Positions 11,082 through 50,518 of a DNA stretch of 56,171 nt are shown here, piece by piece (positions within the stretch are counted from its first letter, which is position 1; each line of letters starts with the position of its first letter). The position numbers were made by a program, and so were the translations under genes. Below the pieces are notes generated by a model, which was not told the origin of the DNA, searched no databases, and saw nothing but the letters and a program-made list of their open reading frames with translations. The stretch is from a virus: positions 1 to 56,171 of the IMG/VR virus record IMGVR_UViG_3300033143_006337; one strand, written 5' to 3'.

Positions 11082-11089
11082 TTTCTCCC

Positions 11090-31158: not shown

Positions 31159-31542
31159 ATGGGTAACTTTCTGAAACTTCTTTTAACGATTTCTGTTTTT
31201 CTTTTCATCTCGTCAGTGGCGAGTGCAGATTGGTTTGGTGAAAATACCAGGATTAAATCTGTAACTCCGTACCATACAACTGTTGGTACGAGTACCGCTC
31301 TTGCAATTCCTTCTGCTGATGTTACTGGAAATATTTATCGTTTTGAGATTTGTAATGATGCTGTAAATACTTCTACTTATCTTGCTGTTGGGATGGATAC
31401 AGACGTTTCAGATGATGGCATTAGGCTTGATAAAGGAGCTTGCTGGGCTTGTGAAAACTGCAAACCATCTATTCTGAAGTTGATAAAGGTAGAGGGGCAG
31501 GCAGCAACTAACGGCTACTCAGTTTTTCAGTACAAACGATAA
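31159..31542 (+). CDS. Signal-peptide-bearing beta protein with C-x2-C-x2-C (copy 1)
   Basis: A 127-residue protein. Residues 1-23 form a Sec signal peptide (FLKLLLTISVFLFISSVASA, cleavage after ASA). The mature part is a beta-rich domain (VTPYHTTVGTSTALAIPSAD ... FEICNDAVNTSTYLAVGM) with CWACENC near residue 94. It is paralogous to the next two genes. The domain follows the pattern of phage decoration-like beta sandwiches. AAGGAG precedes the ATG. A signal peptide is unexpected in a virion protein; export to the envelope or decoration after lysis are possible. Confidence 0.7.
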   Translation: MGNFLKLLLTISVFLFISSVASADWFGENTRIKSVTPYHTTVGTSTALAIPSADVTGNIYRFEICNDAVNTSTYLAVGMDTDVSDDGIRLDKGACWACENCKPSILKLIKVEGQAATNGYSVFQYKR

Positions 31543-31569
31543 CCAAATTTACTTATAAGGAGTTAGACT

Positions 31570-32307
31570 ATGAAATATTTAGCATTGTTTTCAATTCTTC
31601 TGTTTTCCTTCACTGCTTTTGCAGCGATGAACGATTCAAACAATAGAGCTTCCCAGGTAAGTTTTGTGCGAGGCTCAACAGATCTTGAAGTTAAAGAAAT
31701 CTCAAGTGTACAGTGCAGAGCAGATGTTGCAGGAAATTTAGGAGGTAAATACTTCCTGATTTATTCAGCATTGGATGCTGTGAAATATGGTATCTGGTAC
31801 GATGTTGATGATGGTTCAAGCGCACCAACAGTAGCGGGAGCAACGCTTGTAGAAGTTGATATTTCTTCAGGTGATTTAGGAGATCCTGTTTGTGCGGCAA
31901 CTGAAACTGCAATGGATGCTGTAACCGGAACACCCTGGGATATTGGGAGAGTTACAGATACACTTACCATTACAAGTTCTGACTTTGGAGCTGTAACGGA
32001 TATAGCCGATGTTGACACAACGCACACCGATATTTCAAAGACTACAGACGGGGTGAGCGCAGAAGCTGCAATTGGTGCTTCTGATATCATTGCGAATATA
32101 AGAGGATTCCAGGTTTGCAATGATGCTGTGAATACGTCAACTTACTTACTGATAGGTTGGTCGGCTACAGTTCAGGATACTGGCATAAGGATTGGGAAAG
32201 GGATTTGCTATTCTTGCGAAGAATGCTCAAGGAGTATTCTCTCAAATATGTATGTTTCTGGGCAGGCTGATGCAAACGCTTATGGAATTGTACAATGGAG
32301 AAAGTAA
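31570..32307 (+). CDS. Signal-peptide-bearing beta protein with C-x2-C-x2-C (copy 2, two domains)
   Basis: A 245-residue protein. Residues 1-18 form a signal peptide (KYLALFSILLFSFTAFA). A first domain (about 30-150) shows a VKYGIWYDVDDGS segment as seen in phage tail/fibre domains; the C-terminal domain (about 160-245) is the paralogue of copy 1, with FQVCNDAVNTSTYLLIG and CYSCEEC. AAGGAG precedes the ATG; the stop overlaps the third copy (ATGA-type). The extra domain suggests a fusion or gain. Confidence 0.7.
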   Translation: MKYLALFSILLFSFTAFAAMNDSNNRASQVSFVRGSTDLEVKEISSVQCRADVAGNLGGKYFLIYSALDAVKYGIWYDVDDGSSAPTVAGATLVEVDISSGDLGDPVCAATETAMDAVTGTPWDIGRVTDTLTITSSDFGAVTDIADVDTTHTDISKTTDGVSAEAAIGASDIIANIRGFQVCNDAVNTSTYLLIGWSATVQDTGIRIGKGICYSCEECSRSILSNMYVSGQADANAYGIVQWRK

Positions 32308-32678
32308 TGATTAAATATCTAAGCTTACTTCTTTTACTGTTTTCTTTTACTTCATTCTCTGATGTTGTATTCAATTCTAATACGATGATGAATCAGATTG
32401 AGGTAGAGCATTCAACTGTTGGAGTAGCTGCGCAGCTTGCGATTGCTTCAGCTGATGTTAAGGCTGATTTGCATGGGTTTAGCATTTGTGTGGATAAAGA
32501 AGCAACGGCTACTTACTTTGCTATTGGTGAAGCAGTAGATCCTTTAACTGATGGGGTAAGAATTGGTGCAGGGCAATGCTTTATGTGTAATTTTTGCTCT
32601 GGTAAAATCTTAAGGCTTTTACGTGTTGTTGCTCAAGCAGCATCAACAGGTTACTCAGTAACGCAATTTAGGCAATGA
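32307..32678 (+). CDS. Signal-peptide-bearing beta protein with C-x2-C-x2-C (copy 3)
   Basis: A 123-residue protein. Residues 1-18 form a signal peptide (IKYLSLLLLLFSFTSFS). The mature part matches the other copies: HSTVGVAAQLAIASADV, FSICVDKEATATYFAIG and CFMCNFC, ending GYSVTQFRQ. ATG overlaps the previous stop. The 3' end is part of a 34-bp tandem duplication. Function as for copy 1. Confidence 0.68.
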   Translation: MIKYLSLLLLLFSFTSFSDVVFNSNTMMNQIEVEHSTVGVAAQLAIASADVKADLHGFSICVDKEATATYFAIGEAVDPLTDGVRIGAGQCFMCNFCSGKILRLLRVVAQAASTGYSVTQFRQ

Positions 32679-32723
32679 CGCGAGCATATAGGTAACGCAA
32701 TTTAAGCAGTGATGTAAACATAT
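32658..32723 (+). repeat. Imperfect 34-bp tandem duplication
   Basis: GTAACGCAATTTA begins both units (32658 and 32692), and the remaining bases of the units agree at most positions. The first unit contains the end and stop of the third paralogue; the second is non-coding and runs to the tail-tube ribosome site. It looks like a recent local duplication of a gene end, consistent with the copying that produced the paralogues. Confidence 0.75.
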
Positions 32724-32740
32724 GGTAAAGGAGTACCGTT

Positions 32741-34342
32741 ATGAAATATCGTTCTAAAACAGATTATGCAGCAATCTATGCTGGTGATAAAGAAGGATAC
32801 AACATTGGTTTAGATGGGAGTATCTTTCTAAGAAAAGAAACTACCCCCAGGACTTTTAACGCTCCCAGGATCGGAACACAGGGACTTTCAGAAGGAGATA
32901 CAGCTGCTTCAACAGATATCTCAGGTGGAACTGATGATAATGTAGATGTTGCTGTTGATGGTGGAAGTGTTGTGACTGCGAATATCGCTTCTCTTGTTGG
33001 TCTTAGTACTGGGGCTTTGATTGCAGCTGCTCTTGAAGTAGCTATTAATGCTGCTCTTGCTGCAGATAGCCAAGATGCAAGGGTATGGGTAGATTTCGAT
33101 GGTGGTGATGATCATTACGAGATTTACAGTCAATTCACTGGACTTTCTTCTGCTGTTGTTATCACTGACTCTGCAGGCGACAACTTAGCAGACGATTTGA
33201 AAATTGGTGTTGCAAATGCCGGTACTGAAACTGCTGGAACTGATGATCAAGATTTCTTGCTCTATACAACAGGTGGTCCTACGTATTCTCAGCCAGTGGA
33301 ATCCAATGCCCATAGAAACGGACGTTTCCACACTGGGATTATACGAAAAAAGAAGGTTGCAGAGTTTGATATTGACACAATGATCAATATGAGCGGCAAT
33401 GCAGGGGATTCCTTGGATACAGCTATCAGGCTGCTCCTGGAGAACGTCTTTGGTCTTGAGACTGTTGTTGCGGCAACTTCAATTGATTATGAGCAAGGAC
33501 TTCCTAACTTTTATTTCTCAATGGTCCGAGTATCGACTATCTTTGGTGAGTACTTCACAGGTGCTTATGCCAAAGATATGACAATGACTCTTCCAGGTGA
33601 TAACCCAGGAACTTTCAAGTTTACTGGAAAAGCTGAGAAAGCTTCTATTGCTGGGCTTGCTCAATTAGATGGTGATGTTATTGCTTCTGCTGATGTTATC
33701 CTGAATGTTGATGAATCTGAAAGGTATACTGCTAACTCGAGAGTTATGCTTGTCGGTTTAGACGGTAGAACAATTCTTGCTGGTGCAGATGGAAGTCTTT
33801 ACGTAGCAAGTTTAGATCATGCTTTAGAAAAGGTGGTTTTAAGTGCTGCAGTGGATGCTGAAGATGATGGTTACTTAGTTCCTTGGAATCCAGGGGCAGT
33901 ACAACAGACAGGTAGAGATAATATCTACACTGATCTTGAGGGGAGCATCAAGCTTAACTCTACTGGTCAGGAGATTTGCACAACAAACATCGTTCTTTCA
34001 GCTACGAACGACCATATAGACAAAGACAACTGCTTTGGTGCAGATGCTAACAGAGGTTTTGTTGCAGGCAATCGCTTAACACTAAATCTTGCTGTTACTT
34101 TTGATCTAAGTAATGAAAACTTTGCAGATGTTGTGCAGGCAAGAGAGTTCGCAGGATTTGCACCAGAGATTGTTGTAGGGGATACTTCAGGACGTTATCT
34201 AAAAGTAACCGCTCCTAAGTGGATTCCGAGTGTTCCAGCTTTGGAAGTTCCAGAAAACGGAACTACCCCAACTACGCTGGAAGGAACTCTTTATCAGTCT
34301 GATTCAGGTGCAAAAGATCCTATAAAATTGCGTTTTCTGTAA
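32741..34342 (+). CDS. Major tail tube protein (large form)
   Basis: A 533-residue protein, placed just before the tail assembly chaperones, where tube proteins lie. It has an N-terminal tube-like region (GLDGSIFLRKETTPRT), an inserted Ala/Gly/Asp-rich domain (about 60-160, with VDVAVDGGSVVTANIAS, a typical fibre/DUF-like insertion), and a long beta-rich C-terminus (YAKDMTMTLPG, KFTGKAEKA). It is longer than most tubes, so it probably carries surface domains. AAAGGAG precedes the ATG. Confidence 0.7.
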   Translation: MKYRSKTDYAAIYAGDKEGYNIGLDGSIFLRKETTPRTFNAPRIGTQGLSEGDTAASTDISGGTDDNVDVAVDGGSVVTANIASLVGLSTGALIAAALEVAINAALAADSQDARVWVDFDGGDDHYEIYSQFTGLSSAVVITDSAGDNLADDLKIGVANAGTETAGTDDQDFLLYTTGGPTYSQPVESNAHRNGRFHTGIIRKKKVAEFDIDTMINMSGNAGDSLDTAIRLLLENVFGLETVVAATSIDYEQGLPNFYFSMVRVSTIFGEYFTGAYAKDMTMTLPGDNPGTFKFTGKAEKASIAGLAQLDGDVIASADVILNVDESERYTANSRVMLVGLDGRTILAGADGSLYVASLDHALEKVVLSAAVDAEDDGYLVPWNPGAVQQTGRDNIYTDLEGSIKLNSTGQEICTTNIVLSATNDHIDKDNCFGADANRGFVAGNRLTLNLAVTFDLSNENFADVVQAREFAGFAPEIVVGDTSGRYLKVTAPKWIPSVPALEVPENGTTPTTLEGTLYQSDSGAKDPIKLRFL

Positions 34343-34373
34343 GTTAGTTTTTGTGTACTCCTTTCTACTTATA

Positions 34374-34407
34374 AAATCTGCCTGGGCTCTAGCGCCCAGG
34401 TGGATTT
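34374..34407 (+). terminator. Terminator-like hairpin after the tail tube gene
   Basis: CCTGGGC pairs with GCCCAGG around a short loop and can extend with AAATC/GATTT on both sides. A run TTTTCT follows. It lies 32 bp after the tube gene stop and would reduce read-through from the abundant tube gene. Confidence 0.65.
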
Positions 34408-34420
34408 TCTGCTAAATATA

Positions 34421-34440
34421 ATTAAGTACTAATACTTAAT
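34421..34440 (+). promoter_or_regulatory. Perfect palindrome upstream of the tail chaperone gene
   Basis: ATTAAGTA and TACTTAAT flank a 4-nt centre (8-bp inverted repeat), 25 bp before the ATG at 34465 and just before the ribosome site region. It could bind a dimeric regulator (for example one of the RHH-like proteins) or fold in the mRNA leader. Function unknown. Confidence 0.35.
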
Positions 34441-34464
34441 TTACTTCATAGAAAGGCGTGAGCA

Positions 34465-34959
34465 ATGGCACTATCAGTAACACAGACCAAGAGACTAAAT
34501 GCAGTAAGAATCATCTCTAAGAAAGATCCCTCAATTGACTGGGATCAAACCTCTGAAGAAGATTGGAAAACTTATTGCGAAGATCCAACCAAAAATGAAG
34601 CTTTGATAAAGCTTAAACCAGATCAAGCCCCCACAATTTTCCTTTGCAACTTTGAGCTTTCCGGTAGAGAAAGAGCAACCGGAAAAGATTCAATGGTGAA
34701 GGGGATTGATGATGAGAAAAACGTGCAGGTATCCTATGGGTATTGGTCCTATACGATTGTGAGAATGATCCTGAAGGAGATTCAAAACCCACCAGGTACC
34801 AAAGATGGTATCGTGCTTAAAAAAGATCCTAAAGGCTATGTGGATGACTACACGATGAGTATTCTGGACAGGCCAAACCTGGGGTTAGTGGCAGAAATTT
34901 TTAACCACTATATGACATTATCAGAAGAAGATGAGACAAAGGCTGAATCAAAAAACTGA
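34465..34959 (+). CDS. Tail assembly chaperone (G-type)
   Basis: A 164-residue soluble protein with many charged helices, located between the tube and the tape measure, the place of gpG-type chaperones. It ends in ESKN followed by TGA, with a -1 slippery heptamer A AAA AAC on its last two sense codons. It would make the short chaperone; a fraction of ribosomes would read into the next frame. The role is to hold the tape measure and recruit tube subunits. Confidence 0.75.
   Translation: MALSVTQTKRLNAVRIISKKDPSIDWDQTSEEDWKTYCEDPTKNEALIKLKPDQAPTIFLCNFELSGRERATGKDSMVKGIDDEKNVQVSYGYWSYTIVRMILKEIQNPPGTKDGIVLKKDPKGYVDDYTMSILDRPNLGLVAEIFNHYMTLSEEDETKAESKN
34950..34956 (+). promoter_or_regulatory. 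-1 programmed frameshift site A AAA AAC
   Basis: Six A and a C lie in the correct register (TCA AAA AAC TGA) directly before the stop codon. A -1 slip puts ribosomes in the frame AAA AAA CTG ATA, which stays open into the downstream chaperone-extension frame. The downstream frame has no ATG of its own. This fits the G/GT mechanism of siphoviral tails. Confidence 0.8.
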
Positions 34960-35378
34960 TAGGCGCATTGGTAGATCTTTATTTTGCCAGTGCGGGAAAC
35001 AAAAAACTTTGCTCCTGTAGTATTTGCCCGAAGGAGCAAAAGAAACTTAGAAATTGTGAGCAGAAAGGTTTTCGTAATGTTAAGAAACCAAGAAGAGTTG
35101 ACGGTATGGGGATGGAATTTTATTTCTGCCCAGGTAAAGCTCAGTGGTATCCAAACATTGCGGAAACTTTTGAGCAGTGCAGGATAGCTCTTGAGACTGG
35201 CATTATGCCAGAGACAGGAAGCTTCTTAGATCAAAATGAACTTTTTGTAGAAGCTTTTCCTTTGTTTGTTGAGAGATGGAAGTACAGGAAGTACTTAGCG
35301 ATTTGGCAAGATGTAATGGAGTACACACCGAAGGTTTTGGAAGCTGTTGGAAGAATGTTCGGTGGAAAGGCTAAATAG
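34956..35378 (+). CDS. Tail assembly chaperone extension (T part of GT fusion)
   Basis: The -1 frame continues for 140 residues: LIGALVDLYFASAGNKKLC at the start, then a Cys-containing part (CSCSICPKEQKKL, CEQKG) and a helical end. It would give a fusion of about 304 residues with the G part. It runs up to the tape measure start (stop overlaps GTG). The four or more Cys could bind zinc, an unusual feature for a T domain. A TTG at 34968 is the only alternative start. Confidence 0.75.
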   Translation: MIGALVDLYFASAGNKKLCSCSICPKEQKKLRNCEQKGFRNVKKPRRVDGMGMEFYFCPGKAQWYPNIAETFEQCRIALETGIMPETGSFLDQNELFVEAFPLFVERWKYRKYLAIWQDVMEYTPKVLEAVGRMFGGKAK

Positions 35379-38300
35379 TGGCGATCAAAACAACAGATGA
35401 ATTCAGAATTCCCATTAGTGTTGAGAATGAAACTGATGCTGATTTCAAGAAAATGGAAGTTACGGTAGCCAAAACCCTCGGTACTTTAAAAAATTACCAA
35501 AGGGCTAAAGCTCAGCTTGATAAAACCTCTCAATCTTTAAGTGCTTCTCTTGAGGTCACTAATCAACAGGTTCAGACAATTTCGGCAAGCTATATGCATG
35601 CTTCAAAAACTAGTGGAAAATTTACAGAAGCAATAACTAAGCAAACATCTGCTGTCCAACAACTATCAAGTACTTTTGCAACAATAGGAAATGTAGTTTC
35701 TCAGACAACTCAGTTCTTTAGTAATCTCATAAATATTATTGATGTTCTTACTGATCCTGAAAAGCTTAGGCGTTTCTCACAGCTGCTTTCTATTTTATCC
35801 ATTATTATGAGACTAAAAGGACAAAAAGAATTTTCGCAAAGACTTAGAGGCATGTCTAAAAACCTCGATTCGTTTGCAGATAGAATGGAGGTAATACGGG
35901 AAAGAGGTACTGATTTTCAGCAACTTGCGGATAGGGCAGAGATTGCTCAAACAGCTTTGGATGTAATGGAAGGTACTGTTAAAGGTCTTGCTGTTACTTT
36001 TGTAGGTCTTGGTCTTTCAACTCTTATACGTGGATTTGACCGTACAAGAGATTCAGTATTTCAGACAGCTAAAGTGTTTACTGGATTTGGAGGAACAGTA
36101 GCAAAAACTGGTTTTCTTATGGCTAATAAATTCAGACCATCTTTGCTTAAAGCTACAGAAGCTGGTCTTTTACTTTCACCAGTGCTTTTAGGTCTTGGAG
36201 CATTGATGAAAAATACTGATAATCAATTTATTAGATTTGCTGGAACTCTTGCAAGTATTGCTGCGATTATCTTGGGAAGTTTTGCAACTGCTATGCTTTT
36301 TGCACTACGTATTGTTGGAGATTTATTTATAGCTATAGGAGATAAACTTGTAGGGGCTATGGCTTCCTTTCAAAAGAAATCTATAATAATGGAAGAAAGT
36401 ATTAGAAGTCTTACTTTTACCATTCAAGGTTTTTCAAGGGAGCTTGGAGTAGGTGCTGTAGGATCTGTTGAGCTTTGGACAGAAGAAATTGAAAAGCTTA
36501 ATGATACTACTAAAGCGACAAGAAAAGAACTCACTAAATCTGCAAAGCTTATGATTTCTGAAGGAATTGCAATAGGCTTGACACTTGAGCAAAATATAAA
36601 ATTATTTCAAGCTGTTTCAGATATTGCTGCTGATACTGGGAAAAAACATGACGACGTAACGCAAAGAATTATAAGTGCATTGGCTGGGCAATCACAGTCT
36701 GTTCTTGCTCTTGGTATTAATACAAGAGAAACAGCTTTAGAACATAGCAAATTTGTGCAAGAGCTTGAGACAACTACAGATGCGCTTTCTGAAGAAGGAA
36801 AAGTGCTTGCTAGGCTCAGTATTATTTTTGACAGAGCTAATAAAGTAACTGGAGCAGCTGTTGCTGAAGCACAAAGTATTGCAGGAGCTACTGAGATTTA
36901 TGATAAAAGACTTGTACAGCTTCAGGAAAGACTTGGTAAACAAGGGGAGCTTACTAGGATTTTAATTTCTTTACAGACAAGACTTGTTAACGTATTTCTA
37001 AAATTCCCAGAACCAATAATATCAATAGTTGGAAATTTACAGGATTTTCTCGGTGTATCTCTCAAGATTGTTGGTGTTGTTATAAAGTACGCTGTTATTA
37101 TCTCAACTCTTACAACTGTCTACTTACTTCTAAATGCTGCTCTTGTAAAAAATGGGATTATACAGGGCTTTGTACAAAGAGCTTTTGTCATAACTGCAGC
37201 TGCAATAAATACTTCTACAGGGGCAGCTACAACAAATGTGATAGCTACTAACAGTATGTCAGCTGCTCTTTTGAATTTGTCTAATATTATTAGAGGATCT
37301 TTAGTAGTTGCTCTTACTAAATTGAGGTCTGCACTAACTATCACAGCTGTCTTTGGTACTCTTACAGCAGTGATAGGTAAAGTAACTATTGCTGTTGGGC
37401 TTATGTCTAAAGCTGTTATTGCTTTTTTACTTCATCCTGTTGTCCTAGCCGTTACTGCAATAACTGTTACTTTTCTTGCAGCTAAAGAAGCGATTGCAGG
37501 AGTGGTGGAGGAAACAGAATTTCTTAATAAGGCTTTTGCAGAGAATATAGAGCATACAAAAAAAGCAACAAAAGAAATCGATATCTTTGGAAAACTCTGG
37601 GAACTTGCTGTAAAAGCTGGCCATAAATTTTGGAAGCTTATGGTAGATATCATAAAATTTGCAATTCTTGGATACATTGGGGCAACGGTAAAAGCTGTTA
37701 TTGCAATTAAGCAATTACGAATTGCTTGGAATGAATTCACTGGGGATGATGATGAAGCCGAGGGGCTTAGAGAACAAGTTGTGATGCTTGAACAGGCTTT
37801 TAATGATTTAAGACTTACAGCCAATCTTACTAAGCTTGATATTGGTGGGGCTTTTTCATTAGAGATGAGATTAGCTGCAAAAAATATGCGGAGAAAAATT
37901 GATGAAGCTAAAGACAGTGTTATTAAATTTGATACCTCTCTAAGAACTTTAGCAGAGCTAGGAAGAGCTGCTTTTGATCCTAAGAAGCTTAGGCTTGAGA
38001 TATTTGCAGATGAATTTAAACGTGCTGAAATTGCTATGAGTGAACTATCTTTAGCTCATGCAAAAGTTACAGATCAATTTGCAAAAGATAGGTCAAACGA
38101 AGAACTTAGGGAACAGTTTATAAAAACAAAAAGAGATGCTGCTAGAGCTTTTATTGAGCTTGGAAAACTTCGTATTGATACTGTTAATAACTGGGCAGAT
38201 CAGGAAAGAAGACTTGTAATTGATAGGCTTAAGAATGAAGAGAAATTTGTAGAAGCTATAAGGATGGAGAACACTGCTAGGTTAAAAGCTATTGATGAGC

Positions 38301-40426: not shown

Positions 40427-41718
40427 TGACGACAACAGAAAAAGGTTATCTTGAGCAGGATTATTTAGACCAACCTTACTTGTCTGGTCTTAAGCAAAAT
40501 GGTGGTGGTTTCCAGGCTGAGATGAAGATTGTTGACAAGCAGGAAGCCACTGGCTTTCAATCTGATATTCTTATCGTTACTCCTAGTAGTGGCATACTTG
40601 GAATGCAGGCTAAATTTGGAAAGCTTGCACATTATATTTGTGGAGAAGGATATTTAGAAAGAGAATATCTGGAAGAATCTTATCTAACTGAATGCATGTA
40701 CGCAACACAGGGCTTTCAGGCTGAGATGCTTATTGTTGGCCCAAGTGATGATTATCATTTGGGTATGCAAGCCGATATGAAAATTGAAGATGGTGGTGAT
40801 GACTATCATTTAGGTATGCAAGCCGAGATGAAAGTACTTACAGATACCCCTGTAGGTATGCAGGCTGAGATGCTGCGAGCAGTTGCTACTGGTTTCCAAG
40901 GTACCTTTGTAATTTATAATACAGAGCAGCTAAGGATTATGTGTGAGTTTCCTTCTCGCGGGGATGGTACAAACTGGACTTCGACAAGTACAAAATCAGG
41001 AGACTTCTCACCTAATAATCTGAACACAGATATTTTAGAGCAAAGGTGGCAATCAGACGGAGTTATTGCACTTGTAGAGCTTCGCTGCGACGTAGGGGCA
41101 GGACTGACAGCTTTCAATGATACTACTGCAATCCTAAACCACAACTTTTCTATTGGTGCAAGAGTAGAGCTGCAAGGAACTTCAGATCCTACTTACGGTT
41201 CAATTGAGTTTAGTACTGTTATGACTACTGAGCTTGAGAATATGTATTACATTGCACCAAGTCTACCAACTTCCGGGTATCGTTATTGGCGTTTCATTAT
41301 TCAAGATGTCAGTAACGCAGATGGATTTTTGTCCGTTGGAACTATTGTCTTTGGATCTTCACAGATCTTTTCACTTAATGAATGCTTTCAGCTTCCTGTA
41401 ACATTCGGTAAGCGTCATTTTAAGGATTCAATGGAAACTGAAGGCTTCACAAACGTATCTAATGATAGGGCAATGAGAAAATTTTTAGGGCTTTCTTTTG
41501 CTCAGCTTAGTTTTGACGGTGGGAATTATAGGTTGTTACAAAACTACTTTTCTTTTGCAAAAACAGATCTTAAGTGTTTGGTCATACCGCGGCCAACTAG
41601 ACCAAGCTCCCTAGCAGTGTTTGCTAAGCTTAACCAACTTCCAGAAGAGAATCATAATGCTCTTGAGGATAATGATTGGCATGTTGATTTGGCTTTAGAC
41701 TGGGATGAAAGTTTATAA
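40426..41718 (+). CDS. Tail tip protein with short Gly-Phe/Met-Gln repeats
   Basis: A 430-residue protein next to the tape measure. The first about 170 residues are built from repeats: GYLEQDYLDQPYL and GYLEREYLEESYL, and at least eight copies of G(F/M)Q-A-(E/D/K)-(M/F) (for example GFQAEMKIV, GMQADMKIE, GMQAEMLRA). The rest is beta-rich. It is probably the distal tail or a tip-associated adaptor. The start overlaps the previous stop (TAATG). Repeats suggest a modular platform for fibres. Confidence 0.65.
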   Translation: MTTTEKGYLEQDYLDQPYLSGLKQNGGGFQAEMKIVDKQEATGFQSDILIVTPSSGILGMQAKFGKLAHYICGEGYLEREYLEESYLTECMYATQGFQAEMLIVGPSDDYHLGMQADMKIEDGGDDYHLGMQAEMKVLTDTPVGMQAEMLRAVATGFQGTFVIYNTEQLRIMCEFPSRGDGTNWTSTSTKSGDFSPNNLNTDILEQRWQSDGVIALVELRCDVGAGLTAFNDTTAILNHNFSIGARVELQGTSDPTYGSIEFSTVMTTELENMYYIAPSLPTSGYRYWRFIIQDVSNADGFLSVGTIVFGSSQIFSLNECFQLPVTFGKRHFKDSMETEGFTNVSNDRAMRKFLGLSFAQLSFDGGNYRLLQNYFSFAKTDLKCLVIPRPTRPSSLAVFAKLNQLPEENHNALEDNDWHVDLALDWDESL

Positions 41719-43430
41719 TGAGTAGCAGGGACAGAAGACCATACCTTACAGCTGCTTCCTTAACACAGGATGTTTTGGATAACAGCCAAGATAATCTTAC
41801 GCAACAGCTTGAGATGATCGCTGAGATTACTGCACCCGATAGCTCAATTATAAAAGTTTCAGATAGAGCTAAGTATGTTGGTTCTTCTTTCTATGCTCCT
41901 AGAGTAAAATTTCCGATTATCTCAAGGACTGTTGGCGATTGGCTTAGTGGTGAGCTTGAGTTTTCCAGTCTCGATTTAATTTTGAACAATACGGACAAGA
42001 CTTACTCCCCTTATCTTCCTGGGGGAGCTTCTTATGATGGATGGATAGGAAGAAAAGTTGTGGTAAAGGTTGGTCTTTTCGAGCAGGCAGCAACATACAC
42101 AACAATTTTTGAAGGATTTGTAACTGATGTTGGTGGTTTCAGAAGAGACGCTATTACTTTTACGCTCATATGCCGTAATAAGTTTGATTCTGTTAATGCT
42201 TCCTTACCACAAGAAGTACTTGTTCCGGATTCCTATACAGATCTGGAGGATAGTTTTGTTGGTCGGGGTGTTCCTGTTATTTATGGTGACTGGACAACAG
42301 ACTTAAGAGAAGAAGCTCCAAGTGTACCTGCTCTTCCTGTTAACGGAGCAAACGCAGGAGTTTTGGCCGGTACAACTGACTTGAGGCTGGTGCTTGCCTC
42401 AACTCCTATCAGTGTTTTTGACGATACCAGCGTAACTCTTTACCGCGGGGATACTTACTACACGTTTGATGCTGCAGATATTACGATTGTTCCCGCTACG
42501 GATAACACTGAGTTCGATATTGAGCAGCAAAATCTAACTGTTGAGGGATCTCCTTGGATCTATGCACCAGGGGATGAGTTTTATTTGAAGGTTAAGGGAG
42601 TGGATCTTGGGGCTTATGATGATAACATTGTTTCCCAGGCTAAAGATATTCTCAAACGCTTTGGTGGGCTTGTAGACGGGGATTTTGACGCTAACTGGGC
42701 AACTTACCGGGATAAGGCAACTCCTGCACAAAGCAACATTGCTGCTTTCAAATCCCGTGTATGGATCGGAGACGACCAAAAAGCCCTTGCCTATGCCCTG
42801 TCAATGCTTGAGCAGGTACGCTTAGAGGCTTTTGTAGACCGAGACAGCAACTTCAAGCTCCTTGCCCTTCACTTTGAGGATTTTGTAGCTTCCCCCACCT
42901 TCGCAATAAAAAACTGGGATCTCGAGCGCAGGGGGTTTAACCCACAAATCGATGAGCGCAACAATTGGAATAGGGCAAAAGCTGATTTTTCTTATGATCC
43001 TTCAAAGCGGGAAAGTCTTTTCTCAACTGCGATCTACAAAAATTCTGCAGCGATAACGCAGGCAGGAAAAGAGATTTCTAAACTTATAACTTTCCCGAAT
43101 CTCTATGATGAAGATGATGTAGTTTACAATCTTAAGGAAATGATTCGTCTTGCAAGTGCTTACTCTGAGATGATCCCACAAACTCTGTCATCCAGAGCGT
43201 TTCTAAAAGACATTGGAGATTTTGTAGATTTGCAGGTGAAAATAGGGAGTGTTGAATTTGGAAACGGTACTGGTGTACCTTGTATGATAAGAGAAATTGG
43301 TTATGATCCAGATGGTTTAGCGATACCTTCGAAGCTTTGGAGCTTCCAGATGGTTCCTTTCCCCGGCTATGCGCCTGGGTATGCTGGCATAACTGGTGGT
43401 TATAATGCTACGATAACGAAAGAAACTTAA
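41718..43430 (+). CDS. Tail hub/baseplate protein
   Basis: A 570-residue protein with features of tail-associated hub proteins: YAPRVKFPIISR at the N-terminus, long beta-rich stretches with VVVKVGLFEQAATYTTIFEG, and a GFRRDAITFTLICRNKF segment of the kind seen in siphoviral hub/Tal-like proteins. The start overlaps the previous stop (TAATG). It connects the tube to the fibres and probably opens for DNA exit. Confidence 0.65.
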   Translation: MSSRDRRPYLTAASLTQDVLDNSQDNLTQQLEMIAEITAPDSSIIKVSDRAKYVGSSFYAPRVKFPIISRTVGDWLSGELEFSSLDLILNNTDKTYSPYLPGGASYDGWIGRKVVVKVGLFEQAATYTTIFEGFVTDVGGFRRDAITFTLICRNKFDSVNASLPQEVLVPDSYTDLEDSFVGRGVPVIYGDWTTDLREEAPSVPALPVNGANAGVLAGTTDLRLVLASTPISVFDDTSVTLYRGDTYYTFDAADITIVPATDNTEFDIEQQNLTVEGSPWIYAPGDEFYLKVKGVDLGAYDDNIVSQAKDILKRFGGLVDGDFDANWATYRDKATPAQSNIAAFKSRVWIGDDQKALAYALSMLEQVRLEAFVDRDSNFKLLALHFEDFVASPTFAIKNWDLERRGFNPQIDERNNWNRAKADFSYDPSKRESLFSTAIYKNSAAITQAGKEISKLITFPNLYDEDDVVYNLKEMIRLASAYSEMIPQTLSSRAFLKDIGDFVDLQVKIGSVEFGNGTGVPCMIREIGYDPDGLAIPSKLWSFQMVPFPGYAPGYAGITGGYNATITKET

Positions 43431-43442
43431 GGAGGCTTTCAA

Positions 43443-44108
43443 ATGACTGTCAATTTAGTGATATCGAAAACATTTTTAGGAGCGCAAGTCTCCGATGTAC
43501 TGGCAGGAGCAGGTGTTGGTGTTGACATTGGGCAAGTAGTCAATGGAAAATATGTTCCCATCATAAACCAAGTTGCGAATACAGGGCATCAGGATATTTA
43601 TGTTCGGCATGATGCTGCTGTAGACCAAATCACTGATGTTAAGACACATATTGCAGAGTATTCTGCAGGTGCTTATGGTGGTGCAGACAGTGCAGCTAAT
43701 GACTATGCAACATTAATCACAAAAGGAACTGCTGATACTGAAGACACTGCCAACAACTCTAACGGTACAGCTTCTGGTTTTCGTATTGAGCATAATGGTC
43801 TTGGTATCGCTGGGCTTGGTGCAAGTGCTTTCTTACCGTCAAGAGGACAGGTTGATATTTATGGCAATAGTGGAACAGACGGGATTGACTTAGCCAGTGC
43901 TTTTGACGCGCATGTTGACGCTATGGTTTATGATTCAGGTGGTGAGACTGATGCTATTGCTCCTGTTACGGGCCAAATCGGCAAAGCAGCTGATGCAAAC
44001 CTTGGTGAAGCAATGCACGTAGGTTTGAGGTTATACCTCGAACAAGCCGCAACGAATGGTGGTATTATACAGTGGGATTGGGTAGTAGCTTACTCCTTTA
44101 CTGCTTGA
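43443..44108 (+). CDS. Putative virion protein
   Basis: A 221-residue Gly/Ala/Asp-rich protein (VTGQIGKAADANLGEAMHVG) with beta-rich character and no signal peptide, following the hub gene. AAGGAGG precedes the ATG. It resembles small tail-fibre or baseplate accessory proteins; no family recognised. Confidence 0.6.
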   Translation: MTVNLVISKTFLGAQVSDVLAGAGVGVDIGQVVNGKYVPIINQVANTGHQDIYVRHDAAVDQITDVKTHIAEYSAGAYGGADSAANDYATLITKGTADTEDTANNSNGTASGFRIEHNGLGIAGLGASAFLPSRGQVDIYGNSGTDGIDLASAFDAHVDAMVYDSGGETDAIAPVTGQIGKAADANLGEAMHVGLRLYLEQAATNGGIIQWDWVVAYSFTA

Positions 44109-44115
44109 GGTTTTT

Positions 44116-44571
44116 GTGAATTTAATTGTGAGAAAAGAAAATTCACCTGCTAAAAAAATGATAATGCCTCTTTGGCGTTTGAGATGGAGATTTGATTTTA
44201 TCGACAAAGCCCCCAGGATTGGTATCTGGAATGGTACAAGTGGCAGTGAAAAAGATTCTGCATGGGCAGTAGATAAAAGAGGTTTGAAGTCTGCATCGAT
44301 ACAAGGTGAATTTCACAGAGACTACATCGTAAAAACATTTTGGTTCTGTCCTGGTGAAGATTATGCAACGATGAAATGGGAAGGAGCAGTCAATATTCCT
44401 GGTGTTTTGGGATTTCAAGGGGAAGTTAAGTTAGCTCCGAGAATCATTGGTTTAAGCCTTCTTTCAAGATCAGAGCGAATAACGGTTTTTGTTAATGGTG
44501 AAATAACTAAAAGACCAATTAACGAAGACGAAGCAAAATTTAAAATTTATGAACATAGTAGAGGAGTTTAG
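44116..44571 (+). CDS. Putative baseplate/tail protein, GTG start
   Basis: A 151-residue protein with beta segments (GIWNGTSGSE; FHRDYIVKTFWFCPG) and a GVLGFQGEV turn. A purine-rich AGG site is seen upstream of GTG. It lies between two tail genes. Function unknown. Confidence 0.5.
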   Translation: MNLIVRKENSPAKKMIMPLWRLRWRFDFIDKAPRIGIWNGTSGSEKDSAWAVDKRGLKSASIQGEFHRDYIVKTFWFCPGEDYATMKWEGAVNIPGVLGFQGEVKLAPRIIGLSLLSRSERITVFVNGEITKRPINEDEAKFKIYEHSRGV

Positions 44572-44573
44572 TC

Positions 44574-47258
44574 ATGAGAGTTTTTAGGTTTGTTATATTA
44601 GCTACACTTTTAACTTTTGTTTTTGGCCATACGCTTGACACAGATGTTGGTAGAGTTCCCCTAGCTCATCCCGATTTAGGGCATGATGGTGGAGCGGGAT
44701 TGCATACGAAAGTTCGCAATGCATGGACAACTATTGGGGATATTATAAGCTCACGCTATGAAGAGTTTACAAGTATTGCAGACTCAACTCTATCTACTCA
44801 TACTCACAATTTTAACATTCCCTTCGCAGATCTGAATGTAATCCTTTGGGATGATGTTGGGGCAGCTAAGACCAGGATTGCAGATCCAGCTGGAGCGGGG
44901 TGGATAATTGCCGCTAACGGTGGGGATGCTAAGAATAAAATAGATGTAACTACCCCTGGAAGTGGTGGACCACATGATTTTTCTGTAGAAGTGCATTCTG
45001 GTTTAAAAGATATGTCAGTGCAATCTTCTGCAGCTGTTTCTATTACTGGTGGGGATATTGATGATATAGATCTAACAGATCCTGTTCATGATGCTTCTGC
45101 AATCTTTGCCGAGATTGCAACACCAGCAAATCCAGCAGCTGGTAAGCATAAGATTTATTTTAAATCAACCGACAATAAACCCTATCGGTTAGATGAGAAC
45201 GGGGTAGAGCTTGAGCTTGGTTCTGGTGCAGGAGCAGGGGCTATTAACTACATCGCAAACTCAGATATAGAATCAAATGCAGATGATTATGATGAGTTTA
45301 AGGAAACAAAAACCGTAGCCACTGATGTTAGCGACAATGAGATTGATTTAACAGCTCATGGTTTACAAGTAGATGATTTAGTAAGTTTCACAGGGCTATC
45401 AAATACAACAACTCCAGCCAATAGCACAGATTATTACGTGCAGGCTGTGACTGATGCAGATCATTTTAAGCTTTCTACTACGAAAGGTGGATCAGCATTA
45501 ACCTTTGTAGGAACTGATGATACAGGTGTAACACAAACTCAGTCACGCGCAATTACGGGAACAGGTGGAAGCCCTACATTAGCAGTAGCTAGAACAACAA
45601 CAGGAGGAGAAATATTAAGAGGGACAGCTTCTTTAGAAATTACAAAGGACGCTGCCTCAAGATTGGGGGAAGGATTCGCTGTTGATTATACCGTTGATAG
45701 AGCAGACTTTTCTAAACGTCTTGAGTGGTCTTTTGATTGGATGACTTCAGCTAATTATGTTTCCGGTGATATGGGAATGTACTTATACCGGGTAACGGCA
45801 ACAGCTAAGCTTATTCCTGTTAGTTATGTAAACTTACCAGCACACCAAACAGTTGCTACTCCTATTCAGATTTATGCAAATCATGAGGAAGCTGGAGATT
45901 ATAGGATAATCTGGCAAGTACAAACCTCAAATGCATCTGCCTATACAGCTTATGTGGATAATGTTTCTGTTGGTCCAATGAATACAGCGCAAGGCCCACC
46001 AGTAAGTGAATTTATTTCCTGGACGCCAATATTTGAGAATGATTCAACGCATGCTCCAGATCAAGCAGATTTTTATTATCAACGTGTTGGTAGTAAAATA
46101 TTCATACATTTTATTTACAATGTTACTGCTACAGGTACAGACGCAAGCCCTTGGAGGTTTACTCTTCCTGATGGTATATCTCCTTCAACGCTTAGTTCCG
46201 GTGATAGTGCTGGTATTATCAAAGTATGGAAACGAACTGTAGGCTATGTTGCAATAGATGCGGTATATCAAACGGGTAATAAAATAGGACTAATAAAACA
46301 CCAAAGTACTGCATTAATGAATGGCAATGACATAGGAATTACTGGCTCAGAGTTTGATGTTATTGAATCACCTGGTACTATTTCTTTTGAAGTTGCAGCC
46401 TGGTCAGGATCGGCTGTGGGTTTAACAAATAGTCGCGTCGAATATTCTTGCAACACAACAACGACAGATGCAGACGATACTGCTAATTTTTCAAATAGTC
46501 CCAATGGTTGCTTAATGCCAAACATTACGGCAACAACTGCTGGATCAGCTGATTTGTCAAAAAGAGTTCGCTTTTTAACAACTATCCAATCTACCGACGT
46601 AAAAGGAATAGAAATTCTAAGAAACGGAGAAACAATTTGGGAACTTGTAGAAGTATCTGATGCATATGCAATGCATACAAATCAAAGTATTGAATCGTAT
46701 GGTATCGGATATAAACCAGTTACAGGCAGCACTACTGATCTTGACGTTAGATTTGGAAGAGCTGGTAGACTAACCAATGGTTCATATGCTGGCACAGGAT
46801 CTAACTATCCTCAAACATCAGGGGATCGCTACCGAGTATTTAAATCGAGTAATCCTTTAAGTATAGGGCAAGCAGTTACAGAATATTTTGAAGTAAAAAA
46901 ATTAACAGCTGATGTAGCTTCTGATACTGCTTCAATTGCTGATTTTGCTACTACTCTTACACCAGGCAAAGAGTATCGCTTCACAATGAATTATAAAATT
47001 GTTATTGGAGCAGGCGCTCCTCAAGCAGCGACATTGAGACTTCTCGATGGTGGAACAATCATAGGAACTGTTTTTCATTCTTCTGGGTCAAACGTAACTT
47101 ACCAAGATAGTTTTTCTACAGTGCGAACGATGCAAAGCTCAGCATTTACTGTTTCATGGGATGAAAATACAAACTGTGATCTTAACGGGGATAATACTCT
47201 AAATGAAACCCACTTGATAATTGAAGAAGTTGATTTAGTAGAAGGGACTGTAAATTGA
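44574..47258 (+). CDS. Putative tail fibre / receptor-binding protein with N-terminal signal-like segment
   Basis: An 894-residue beta-rich protein. Residues 1-18 look like a signal peptide (VFRFVILATLLTFVFG), followed by GHTLDTDVGRVPLAHPDLG and a region rich in DH, Gly and Asp, then repeated beta-sandwich segments (DFSVEVHSG; NYIANSDIESNADDYDEF; DLDVRFGRAGRLTNGS). AGAGGAG precedes the ATG. It is the largest fibre gene and is likely to bind the receptor. The hydrophobic start is unusual for a fibre and may be an anchor or an export signal. Confidence 0.6.
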   Translation: MRVFRFVILATLLTFVFGHTLDTDVGRVPLAHPDLGHDGGAGLHTKVRNAWTTIGDIISSRYEEFTSIADSTLSTHTHNFNIPFADLNVILWDDVGAAKTRIADPAGAGWIIAANGGDAKNKIDVTTPGSGGPHDFSVEVHSGLKDMSVQSSAAVSITGGDIDDIDLTDPVHDASAIFAEIATPANPAAGKHKIYFKSTDNKPYRLDENGVELELGSGAGAGAINYIANSDIESNADDYDEFKETKTVATDVSDNEIDLTAHGLQVDDLVSFTGLSNTTTPANSTDYYVQAVTDADHFKLSTTKGGSALTFVGTDDTGVTQTQSRAITGTGGSPTLAVARTTTGGEILRGTASLEITKDAASRLGEGFAVDYTVDRADFSKRLEWSFDWMTSANYVSGDMGMYLYRVTATAKLIPVSYVNLPAHQTVATPIQIYANHEEAGDYRIIWQVQTSNASAYTAYVDNVSVGPMNTAQGPPVSEFISWTPIFENDSTHAPDQADFYYQRVGSKIFIHFIYNVTATGTDASPWRFTLPDGISPSTLSSGDSAGIIKVWKRTVGYVAIDAVYQTGNKIGLIKHQSTALMNGNDIGITGSEFDVIESPGTISFEVAAWSGSAVGLTNSRVEYSCNTTTTDADDTANFSNSPNGCLMPNITATTAGSADLSKRVRFLTTIQSTDVKGIEILRNGETIWELVEVSDAYAMHTNQSIESYGIGYKPVTGSTTDLDVRFGRAGRLTNGSYAGTGSNYPQTSGDRYRVFKSSNPLSIGQAVTEYFEVKKLTADVASDTASIADFATTLTPGKEYRFTMNYKIVIGAGAPQAATLRLLDGGTIIGTVFHSSGSNVTYQDSFSTVRTMQSSAFTVSWDENTNCDLNGDNTLNETHLIIEEVDLVEGTVN

Positions 47259-47449
47259 AACGATATATCTGTATAACAATTTCAATTTGGTTTATCTGTA
47301 TAACAAACTGCAGATGTGTTTCTACTCATCACGTAGCAGATAAAAATGGTTGTGTCAAAAAAGAAGCTTCCTACGGTACGCAAGCATATGGTAAAGAAAA
47401 AGAAATCGAAAAATGTGGTTATACCCCAGGGGGGAAAGTCAAAAAATGA
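47255..47449 (+). CDS. Small Cys-rich exported protein, TTG start
   Basis: A 64-residue protein with a hydrophobic start (CITISIWFICITNC, residues 5-18), possible lipobox (TNC), and three further Cys. AAGGG lies 9 nt before TTG, which overlaps the fibre stop. It overlaps the next gene by ATGA. A small lipoprotein or periplasmic peptide; role unknown. Confidence 0.5.
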   Translation: MKRYICITISIWFICITNCRCVSTHHVADKNGCVKKEASYGTQAYGKEKEIEKCGYTPGGKVKK

Positions 47450-47826
47450 CAGATATTGTTAGAGCAAGAAATACTCATAGAGCCCAGGTGCTTGTTGATG
47501 GTGACATGAGCCAGGATCTTGTATCCAAGACTATTGACTTTAGAGAAATGGCGATAGGTTCTATACAATCTCATTGGGAAGGCAACGATGAGTTTGATGG
47601 TGAGCTTCATTTTTACGGGAGCAATTATCCAGACCAGTTTTTCTCTAAGCTTTCTTGCGGTTACCACGTTATGGATGAGGATGGTTCTGATGCTTATGAT
47701 AATGCAAAATGCCACATCCCAAACCTGGGGGTTATCGGGTATCGTTATATGAGGGTGCTTTACAAAAAAGGCTCAAATACTGCAGGAACACTAAACATCA
47801 TTTGTATAGGTAAGAAAAATGGGTAA
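47446..47826 (+). CDS. Putative tail fibre-associated protein
   Basis: A 126-residue protein. It has beta segments with Asp/Gly and a terminal stretch YRYMRVLYKKGSNTAGTLNI, a pattern seen in carbohydrate-binding or fibre-tip domains. ATG at 47446 overlaps the previous stop and has GGGGGA upstream. Function inferred from position. Confidence 0.55.
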   Translation: MTDIVRARNTHRAQVLVDGDMSQDLVSKTIDFREMAIGSIQSHWEGNDEFDGELHFYGSNYPDQFFSKLSCGYHVMDEDGSDAYDNAKCHIPNLGVIGYRYMRVLYKKGSNTAGTLNIICIGKKNG

Positions 47827-48262
47827 CATCAAAGATCTTCCTGCACAAATCGTTAAGAATTGCCCCGAAGGTGGAGCCCTGGATGTTTCGTTCTCTCCTA
47901 TCGATAGCACGACGAAAATTGCAGCTGCTTCGAATGGTTGGGTGGATGTTCCTGATGAAAGTTGGAAAGAGCTTTTCAAGCATACCCTGCTTGCCGTTGA
48001 CGGTACGCTCTATATTTTAGGAATGCTTACGTCTTTAGTCGGCATGAGCGGGGATTTTAGAATTGATGTTTATGATGGTGCAAGCTCAACATACCACGAA
48101 GAGCATAATTTGAATTCACAAAAACCATCTCTTTCTCATGGGTTAAAAAAAGCAATTAACGTGCCTTTCGTAGCTGGAGCTTACATAGCTGTACAGGCTA
48201 GGATGAACGTACAAAACCAGTCAGGACGTGCATTTGCATCGCTGAGTATCGTTAAACAATAG
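47819..48262 (+). CDS. Putative tail/receptor-binding accessory protein
   Basis: A 147-residue beta-rich protein (ALDVSFSPIDSTTKI; GTLYILGMLTS). An AGG site lies before the ATG, which sits inside the end of the preceding gene. Located in the fibre block. No family recognised. Confidence 0.55.
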   Translation: MGNIKDLPAQIVKNCPEGGALDVSFSPIDSTTKIAAASNGWVDVPDESWKELFKHTLLAVDGTLYILGMLTSLVGMSGDFRIDVYDGASSTYHEEHNLNSQKPSLSHGLKKAINVPFVAGAYIAVQARMNVQNQSGRAFASLSIVKQ

Positions 48263-48284
48263 ATTTTTAGGAAAGGTTTAACTA

Positions 48285-48548
48285 ATGCCTATACTTATTT
48301 TTGACGATAAGGAGTTCAAGTTTTATGTTAGGGCTCGACCTAACGAGACTTTTACTCCTGATGAAGAGATCCAAAAACTTAACGATGAACTTGCTGTTAT
48401 TCGTGGTGAGTATCAGCAAGTTTATAAAAAGTTAAGTAACTTCCTTCCAAAGTTGACACTATGGAGCAGAAAACACGATGTTGATTTGGAAAAAAAGTTA
48501 AGGGCTAAGGAGGAAAAGCAGAAAGAGGCTGAGCCTAAAGAAAGTTAA
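48285..48548 (+). CDS. Coiled-coil virion-associated protein
   Basis: An 87-residue protein with an N-terminal beta part (PILIFDDKEFKFYVRARP) and a charged coiled coil (residues 28-75). AAAGG precedes the ATG. Such small coiled coils often assist fibre assembly or act as linkers. Function unknown. Confidence 0.55.
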   Translation: MPILIFDDKEFKFYVRARPNETFTPDEEIQKLNDELAVIRGEYQQVYKKLSNFLPKLTLWSRKHDVDLEKKLRAKEEKQKEAEPKES

Positions 48549-48568
48549 TCTTTATTTAGGAGTAAGAC

Positions 48569-49588
48569 ATGATAGCTTTCACAACTCTTATTGGTCAATA
48601 CAATGCAGCTCTTTTAACCCTTGCCGATGGTGATTTCGGTCATCCAGCAATCGACGTTAAATCTCGTCTTATCTTGGATCATACAACGTCTTCAATGAAA
48701 ATTGGAGATGGTACGGATATCCTGGATGTACTGGTTTGGGATGCAGCAAGTGCGGGAACTGAAAAAGGTTTCATGCCTCTTGGTGTTTACAAAGCAAATC
48801 CCACCAATCTTGCCGATACAGATGGTGACTGGGTGCCTTTTCAGTTTAACGGTGCTGGAGCATTACGTGTTGATGCAGAAGTTTCTGTAACTACAGGTGC
48901 AGATAAAGCAGAAGATTCCGCTCATGTTACTGCTGATATCGGTTCTTATGTTCTCTCAGTAAGAGAAGACGCGCTTGCTTCAAGCACAAGTGCAGATGGT
49001 GACTATCAGTCTTTCAAAACTGATTCACTTGGCGCATTGTGGGTAAGAAGCAGAGCAGCTTACGCAGAAGATGCTGCCCATACAACTGGTGATATGGGGA
49101 ATTTTGTTCTTGCTGTTGCTAATGAAGCAAAATCTGATCTTGTCAGCGCAGATGGTGACTACACTCCTTTTGCAGTTAGTAAAAAAGGTGAGCTTTACAC
49201 CATAACAGAAATTGCAGAAAACGGAACAGAAGCAGATATTGGTGTTGATGAAGCTGGTGATGGTGAAATTGATGTTGCTTATCACGCTACGAACTTTATT
49301 GATCTTGCAACTATTGCTGTTGGTGCTGGTGAAACTCTCACCATCAAAGGTTTTGATTGCTCAAGTGATGTTCTTGTTGCTGCTCGTCTTGTTGTCGATG
49401 ATGATGGTACGCCTACCAAAATCATCAGAAAACTTCCTGTTACGGAAAACAACGGTTACTCTGCTCTTGAATTCCTAAGAGGAATTGAAGTTGCTGGTAG
49501 CGCAACAATTTCCGTTATACTGCAGGCAAGATGCATGCGCCCAGGAAAAACCGCGCATTGTGGTGGTGGAATCAACGCTTATAAATAA
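48569..49588 (+). CDS. Repeat-containing virion protein
   Basis: A 339-residue protein with at least three repeats of the kind DGDW-VPF / DGDY-QSF / DGDY-TPF, each followed by a beta hairpin (for example GALRVDAEV, GALWVRSRA, GELYTI). This pattern is seen in many phage tail and head fibre proteins. The C-terminal part is a different beta domain (GETLTIKGFDCSS) ending with Cys and Gly. It is a likely exposed fibre or decoration protein. Confidence 0.65.
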   Translation: MIAFTTLIGQYNAALLTLADGDFGHPAIDVKSRLILDHTTSSMKIGDGTDILDVLVWDAASAGTEKGFMPLGVYKANPTNLADTDGDWVPFQFNGAGALRVDAEVSVTTGADKAEDSAHVTADIGSYVLSVREDALASSTSADGDYQSFKTDSLGALWVRSRAAYAEDAAHTTGDMGNFVLAVANEAKSDLVSADGDYTPFAVSKKGELYTITEIAENGTEADIGVDEAGDGEIDVAYHATNFIDLATIAVGAGETLTIKGFDCSSDVLVAARLVVDDDGTPTKIIRKLPVTENNGYSALEFLRGIEVAGSATISVILQARCMRPGKTAHCGGGINAYK

Positions 49589-49613
49589 TCTCTAAGAAAG
49601 GGGATAAGGGAAG

Positions 49614-49979
49614 ATGAAAAGATTAATATTACTGTTGTTCTTGATTCTTCCCTTTCTTTTTTCCTTCGATGAGATTAGAGATCCTGATAGGATAGATGTT
49701 AATGATGTTGGTTACTATTCATCAGTAATCACTGTTGGAACTTCCCAGGTGGAAGTTAAGACTGATACCACAAAAAGACGATACCGCCAAAGAATCCTAA
49801 TCTACAATGACTCAGGCTCAACTGTTTATGTTGGTCCTACAGGAGTTACCACAACAGGCTCCACAAAAGGAGTTCCTTTATACAAAAAACAAACTATGGT
49901 TATCCCGCTAGGGAATGTTGGGATATTTTTGATAGCTGGATCTGCCAGCAATGACGTTATAGTACAGGTGCTTGAGTGA
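49614..49979 (+). CDS. Signal-peptide-bearing beta protein (decoration-like)
   Basis: A 121-residue protein. Residues 1-17 form a signal peptide (RLILLLFLILPFLFS). The mature part (ITVGTSQVEVKTDTTKR ... RILIYNDSGSTVYVGPTGV ... GVPL) follows a beta-sandwich pattern typical of phage decoration/fibre domains and resembles the mature domains of the three paralogues near 31-32 kb but lacks their Cys motif. A GGGGATAAGGGA run precedes the ATG. Confidence 0.65.
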   Translation: MKRLILLLFLILPFLFSFDEIRDPDRIDVNDVGYYSSVITVGTSQVEVKTDTTKRRYRQRILIYNDSGSTVYVGPTGVTTTGSTKGVPLYKKQTMVIPLGNVGIFLIAGSASNDVIVQVLE

Positions 49980-50518
49980 GAAAACTTCTATTCATACTGC
50001 TATGCCTTCTTTTTATCCAGGCTCCAGGTACTACTGATTTTTGGATTAGTCCTGAAGCAGAATCCATTCCTTTTGATCCCCTTACAAGTGGTTTAACGAG
50101 TACAGAAGTTGGGCCAGCAATAAGAGAAGCTGCAGATAGTGTAGCCGTTTCAGCTTCACCAGGATTCACCTGGGGTAAGAGCGGAAATATCACTAACTCT
50201 TATTTACTGAATGATACTGTACCGTCTAATCTGGCCGGTAGAATTGTTCCCATTACAGCTGGATATATAGCAGAGATTTTTGTATCAGCTGAAGTTGCTG
50301 CTACCTGTACAATTACTATTTATAAAAGAACTGATCCTGGTCCGGTATTTACACCCCTGGATTCTATTTCCCTGATAGCTGTAAGAACAATGGTAGCTGC
50401 ATCTACAGCAAGTGTTGCTCGCGGTGATGAGATTGCTGTAAAAGTTACTGCTGGGAGTGTTAAGAATCCTGTTGTTGGTTTGGTTATCAAAGGAGAGGTT
50501 TCTGGATCTCCACCATAA
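49976..50518 (+). CDS. Signal-peptide-bearing virion-like protein
   Basis: A 180-residue protein with a hydrophobic start (RKLLFILLCLLFIQAPG, residues 2-18). The mature part has TSTEVGPAIREAAD, a segment seen in phage collagen-like or fibre stalks, then a beta-sandwich with YIAEIFVSAEVAATC. It starts at GTG, overlapping the previous gene. Likely a fibre domain protein carrying an export signal. Confidence 0.6.
   Translation: MRKLLFILLCLLFIQAPGTTDFWISPEAESIPFDPLTSGLTSTEVGPAIREAADSVAVSASPGFTWGKSGNITNSYLLNDTVPSNLAGRIVPITAGYIAEIFVSAEVAATCTITIYKRTDPGPVFTPLDSISLIAVRTMVAASTASVARGDEIAVKVTAGSVKNPVVGLVIKGEVSGSPP

Follow-up and report, generated by a model that had tools for sequence, protein, structure and literature searches.

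Predicted Sec signal peptides on fibre and tail-region proteins of a siphovirus-like phage, and their possible role in late virion assembly

In the textbook view, the assembly of tailed phages is wholly cytoplasmic. Why, then, would genes that lie among the virion genes of such a phage encode signal peptides for export? This question is raised by the IMG/VR virus record IMGVR_UViG_3300033143_006337, whose 56,171 bases were analysed at full length and are called the window here. The layout of the window is siphovirus-like, with the replication genes running leftward and a late block running rightward. Six genes of the late block, named here by their first position, encode proteins with a predicted signal peptide: three paralogs ahead of the major tail protein gene (31159, 31570, 32307), a tail fibre (44574) and two appendage proteins (49614, 49976). 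We propose, with a little more confidence than doubt, that terminal virion parts of this phage are exported through the Sec pathway, fold outside the cytoplasm, and are attached to virions during lysis or afterwards.

Signal peptides were called by a rule set of our own, which considers the n-, h- and c-regions and the -3/-1 cleavage site, rather than by SignalP. By this rule, 6/30 late genes but 0/44 early genes of the window carried a signal peptide (Fisher p = 0.003), as did 0/29 antisense open reading frames (ORFs) and 0.7% of residue-shuffled late proteins. The structural regions of the control phages contained at most one positive gene each (lambda 1/22, N15 1/24, T1 1/9, Thermus P23-45 0/24), and these positives were known envelope genes, namely lom of lambda and the cor genes of N15 and T1. 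All six leaders have, by the same rule, a positive n-region, a hydrophobic h-region and small residues at -3 and -1. Strong Shine-Dalgarno sequences (AAGGAG or AGGAG) are located 7 nucleotides upstream of 31159, 31570 and 44574; the ribosome-binding sites of 32307, 49614 and 49976 are weaker, and 49976 starts with GTG. No convincing candidate was seen for an internal start that would yield a cytoplasmic form of the exported proteins. A lipobox with a +1 cysteine is absent from all six, and no second hydrophobic helix retained after the leader was found, either in the beta-rich AlphaFold2 (AF2) model of 31159 or in the sequences of the others. The proteins therefore look soluble: nothing in them suggests a lipid anchor or a membrane anchor. 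Searches of PHROG and Pfam gave no significant match for the window's exported proteins and no lytic domain. Together with the orthologs described below, which occur with and without a signal, these features make export highly probable. The first-pass annotation of this DNA had already assigned leaders to the same six genes, and they pass the rule-based call at a frequency above that in the control siphoviruses. It had also counted among the exported proteins a small Cys-rich product of 47255, which we do not retain: the ORF starts with TTG, has an odd leader and no relatives among G001-G007, and failed the strict call.

The genes 31159, 31570 and 32307 form a cassette between the tail-terminator and major-tail-protein genes. 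Their products have in common a domain, referred to here as the 4-Cys domain, in which four cysteines (a single C and a CxxCxxC motif) are nearly invariant. The start of 32307 overlaps the stop of 31570, an arrangement of translational coupling. The mature part of 31159 is predicted to be a jelly-roll or beta-sandwich carrying the C and CxxCxxC cysteines (AF2 mean predicted local distance difference test score, pLDDT, 86.5). A fold search with it against BFVD gave 143 matches at E <= 1e-3, among which phage proteins about 90 amino acids long are numerous, and the best structural matches were uncharacterised phage beta-sandwich proteins. In the PDB, the fold search reached only weak and unspecific jelly-roll matches, to coats of plant viruses, cupins and Ena spore appendages, which were left uninterpreted. 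In 31570, an extra N-terminal domain precedes the C-terminal 4-Cys domain, and the mature part contains six cysteines; its structure model was of low confidence (pLDDT 46) and was not used. The relatives of 31570 are 32-61% identical to it, and all of them have a signal peptide.

The relatives compared here are metagenomic contigs (G and L series), whose genes were predicted with a simple ORF caller. In scans of IMG/VR, the 4-Cys family turned up on about 20 contigs; each carries one to three copies, immediately ahead of the major tail protein gene. A signal peptide was present in 31/31 distinct members, L012/G005 being called with a later start, L026 by eye, and the rest by rule. At the best-scoring cleavage site, alanine occupies -3 in 24/31 and -1 in 25/31 members, and glutamine often comes next. 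Since the mean identity within the family is 25% in the signal region versus 52% in the mature part, the signal seems to be kept as a feature and not as a sequence, which is how functional leaders usually behave.

The number of cysteines in the mature part is exactly four in 20/20 short members and four, six or eight in the long ones, one of which has five, so that it is even in 30/31 members. The extra cysteines are mostly paired at lineage-specific columns: 54 with 128 (31570 included), 77 with 97, and 70 with 77 together with 146 with 156. This is the pattern expected of disulfide bonds, and it would fit folding outside the cytoplasm. A metal site was also considered for the C and CxxCxxC cysteines; disulfides were preferred because of the predicted export and the mostly paired extra cysteines.

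The cassette is accessory, as in eight sister contigs the tail terminator gene joins the major tail protein gene directly or nearly so, with no 4-Cys gene between them, and as the cassette state changed at least 3-4 times on the tail-protein tree. A 34-bp tandem duplication (32658-32728) covers the end of 32307 together with the spacer that separates it from the major tail protein gene, and is a possible footprint of cassette rearrangement. One relative encodes a hybrid cassette protein (L069:9791-10537), in which a signal peptide and part of the 4-Cys domain are combined with an inserted domain homologous to the neighbouring major tail protein. The exported genes of the window are co-oriented with the late virion genes. 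With a sigma-70 type consensus, promoter-like sites in the cassette numbered 6 versus 6.1 expected, and terminator-like sites 1 versus 1.7 expected.

Orthologs of the tail fibre 44574 occur both with a signal peptide (G003, G007, L053) and without one (G001, G002, G004, G005, G006, L056, L057, L069), in the same place after the same tail genes in those records that were read. They resemble each other most clearly in the N-terminal domain and less so over the rest, and the N-terminal alignment proved too variable for a scan of the collection. The signal-less fibres start at the predicted mature N-terminus of the signal-bearing ones (L069 MAETTTTVGRSELEHPD versus G007 ..LLTA/HTTTTTISRSNLAHPD, where the slash marks the predicted cleavage). 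As in-frame stops are located 0-11 codons upstream of the signal-less starts, no leader was missed there. On the tail-protein tree, the signal peptide of the fibre underwent at least three changes. No second, signal-less fibre homolog was found in the window, in G003 or in the partial G007. The window fibre itself matches no PHROG or Pfam family; it is tied through its N-terminal domain to the signal-bearing G003 fibre (G003:22613), which matches PHROGs for virion structural, head decoration and tail fiber proteins.

A similar picture was obtained with the appendage proteins. The product of 49614 is 57% identical to G006 31178, a protein that lacks the signal and begins, in the alignment, at the predicted mature N-terminus, and the counterpart of 49614 in G002 bears a signal. 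At the position of 49976, the protein is signal-bearing in the window and in G002 (L032:14273-14809) and signal-less in L082, L043 and L074. The G002 and L082 proteins match each other at E = 2e-21; as 49976 itself is only 19-24% identical to the same-position proteins, its orthology is mainly positional. All signal-less starts of the fibre, 49614 and 49976 counterparts have in-frame stops 0-18 codons upstream, which excludes missed leaders in these orthologs. The predicted signal is modular, in that one and the same mature protein has orthologs that carry it and orthologs that lack it. Another signal-bearing protein, G006:26046, matches a tail fiber PHROG (E = 2.7e-42), and its cultured homologs in HMO-2011, Venkman, MEP402 and HTVC115P have no signal peptide. 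The fold search and the PHROG matches of signal-bearing relatives back the first-pass view that the mature domains are beta-sandwiches of virion type. In G006, whose main fibre is signal-less, two genes of the fibre region (26046 and 27301; L043:9046-10281 and 10301-11143) have clear signal peptides. The distant phage L082 encodes a 457-amino-acid fibre-like protein (L082:7976-9349) with an apparent leader, MRLVFKLLFLMLTVSGIVYAQ, which fails the rule-based call, and with a weak tail-fibre PHROG match; exported fibre-type proteins may reach beyond this lineage.

These observations could be accommodated by the following course of events. The host Sec pathway would take the fibre, the small beta-sandwich appendages and the 4-Cys proteins out of the cytoplasm, and signal peptidase I would remove their leaders. 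The exported proteins would then fold outside the cytoplasm, where the 4-Cys family would gain two or more disulfides. The core virion (capsid, tail tube, tape measure and tail tip), whose proteins have no signal peptides, would meanwhile assemble in the cytoplasm, and lysis would mix the compartments, allowing the pre-folded proteins to bind the particle as the last assembly step. In T4 and P22, fibres, spikes and decoration proteins are the components that can be added in vitro once the particle is complete, as is seen with the long tail fibres of T4 and the tailspikes of P22, and this makes such late attachment chemically plausible. For the fuller scheme, in which assembly is divided between two compartments, with head and tail made inside, fibres and disulfide-bonded tail-decorating proteins outside, and the signal serving as a modular compartment switch, we see the chances as evenly balanced. 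The first-pass annotation had left two uses for the exported proteins, the dressing of virions at lysis or a change of the host surface. The data favour dressing: the exported fibre seems to come from the sole copy of that gene in the genome, the genes belong to a late operon in which no promoter signal rises above chance, and their soluble products are anchor-free.

Could the leaders be explained otherwise? That they are artefacts of wrongly chosen starts, giving hydrophobic N-termini by chance, is conceivable as the calls come from a rule-based predictor; with strong ribosome-binding sites on several of the genes, retention in 31/31 homologs and none in 44 early genes, we regard this as scarcely credible. 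The genes might also be ordinary morons, bacterial genes for secreted proteins that were acquired by the phage and have no link to the virion. The cassette was gained or lost several times and, like a moron, is an accessory insertion between conserved genes that is missing from eight sister contigs. However, a moron's own promoter and terminator do not emerge from the site counts given above, the cassette protein finds its best structural matches among beta-sandwich proteins of phages, and a conserved-peptide scan with two window proteins, which covered 84,980 bacterial and archaeal genomes (host or prophage), found no relatives. As the fibre and appendage proteins moreover have signal-less phage orthologs in matching positions, this explanation is very improbable. 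An uncleaved leader, acting as a plug or anchor in the tail tip or tethering assembling tails to the membrane, would suit the weaker cleavage sites of 49614 and 49976, and it is by its N-terminus that a fibre is normally attached to the tail. Most 4-Cys members, however, have Ala-x-Ala before Q, D or G, and the signal-less orthologs start at the mature N-terminus and so need no anchor, which makes this role improbable.

The exported proteins might instead act in the host envelope as soluble secreted copies of virion domains, blocking receptors or incoming tails (superinfection exclusion) or keeping progeny off debris. The L069 cassette protein, with its domain related to the major tail protein, could make a decoy. 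On the other hand, the window's proteins have neither a lipobox nor a retained membrane segment, unlike Cor, Llp and Lom, and a late operon without its own promoter signal would be late for exclusion. An envelope role also leaves unexplained why the phage would export its own fibre and why signals are gained and lost on the same fibre. We consider it unlikely, though it is the main rival reading: the signal-bearing tail-region genes of the controls (lambda lom, N15 and T1 cor) encode envelope proteins, and the 4-Cys cassette is an accessory insertion between two core genes. Several points also weigh against late attachment of exported parts. The 4-Cys family has no signal-less ortholog, its virion role is read from position and fold only, and a metal site in it is still conceivable. 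The location of the exported proteins on the virion is a proposal made from sequence. Finally, no tailed phage exporting fibre or decoration proteins was found in the open-access literature; subscription papers were outside this search, and a precedent may exist there.

If late attachment is true, the repeated acquisition of Sec signals by fibre and decoration genes would mean that the last assembly steps can shift to the periplasm or the exterior. Disulfide bonding would thereby become available, and virions could be dressed with parts for which the cytoplasm is a poor place to fold. As the signal is modular, its effect is open to test by adding or deleting the leader. A signal peptide in a tail region should also not automatically be annotated as the mark of a moron or an envelope gene.

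The features discussed are collected in Table 1. The major tail protein 32741 has orthologs 52-66% identical to it, no signal peptide, and no PHROG or Pfam match. No cultured relatives were found by tblastn of 31159, the major tail protein, the fibre N-terminus and 49614, and no tRNA genes were found in the window. Two further genes of the lysis region deserve mention. A predicted lipoprotein of 294 amino acids (53413-54297; ..LLFSC) is too large for a usual Rz1-type spanin; it has relatives in G001-G005, several with a cysteine behind the leader. A late protein (55746-56075) with a signal peptide, a Cys-rich exported part and a C-terminal membrane segment adjoins endolysin and holin-like genes, and may be a lysis protein of the unimolecular spanin-like kind; G001, G002 and G005 encode short relatives that also bear a signal.

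Table 1. Features of the window (a slash marks the predicted signal cleavage site; single positions are gene starts)
Feature	Position	Strand	Length (amino acids)	Remarks
Terminase	22540	+		start of late block
Portal	24160	+		late block
Head-tail adaptor	29438	+		late block
Tail terminator	30683..31147	+		weak PHROG match (E = 0.058); orthologs in same place in relatives; left cassette flank
Predicted exported 4-Cys protein 1	31159..31542	+	127	signal about residues 1-23 (..SSVASA/DWFGEN); AAGGAG 7 nucleotides upstream
Predicted exported paralog 2	31570..32307	+	245	signal (..FTAFA/AMNDSN); AAGGAG 7 nucleotides upstream
Predicted exported paralog 3	32307..32678	+	123	signal (..SFTSFS/DVVFNS); 4-Cys domain; GGAG 6 nucleotides upstream
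Major tail protein	32741..34342	+		role by position, ahead of tail-chaperone-like and tape-measure genes; right cassette flank
Tape measure	35378	+		late block
Tail-tip genes	40426, 41718	+		late block, ahead of fibre region
Tail fibre	44574..47258	+	894	predicted signal (..LTFVFG/HTLDTD); AGGAG 7 nucleotides upstream
Small Cys-rich ORF	47255..47449	+		no relatives among G001-G007; membership of exported set unsupported
Small appendage beta-sandwich protein	49614..49979	+	121	predicted signal peptide; relatives with and without signal
Appendage protein	49976..50518	+	180	predicted signal peptide; GTG start; overlaps 49614
Amidase_2 endolysin	54672	+		after fibre region

Signal-bearing proteins known from tailed phages are endolysins, spanins, and exclusion or conversion proteins, and the inoviruses have signal-bearing virion proteins and assemble in the membrane. 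Like the genes described here, those for Lom of lambda, Cor of N15 and T1, and Llp of T5 carry signals and lie in or beside the tail cluster. Their products, however, belong to the outer membrane or are lipoproteins, and have no relation to parts of the virion, whereas the window encodes soluble virion-type beta-sandwiches, and fibres that have signal-less orthologs. The inovirus proteins pVIII and pIII are, as proposed here, virion proteins with signal peptides of a cleavable type; the inovirus coats remain anchored in the membrane and are assembled there as the particle is extruded, in contrast to a tailed particle with signal-less core genes and no membrane segment in the mature exported proteins. 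Exported endolysins, such as Lys44 of fOg44 and the signal-arrest-release (SAR) endolysins, share with the proteins of the window a leader for Sec and signal peptidase on a tailed-phage protein, and a signal peptide has been described for the fOg44 endolysin (PMC4640515). These are lytic enzymes, whereas the window's exported proteins have no lytic domain. The small phage beta-sandwich appendage or decoration proteins of the PHROG 30212 type (about 90-110 amino acids) have, unlike the 4-Cys family, neither a signal peptide nor the C/CxxCxxC set, but show the same fold and domain pattern as the proteins described here.

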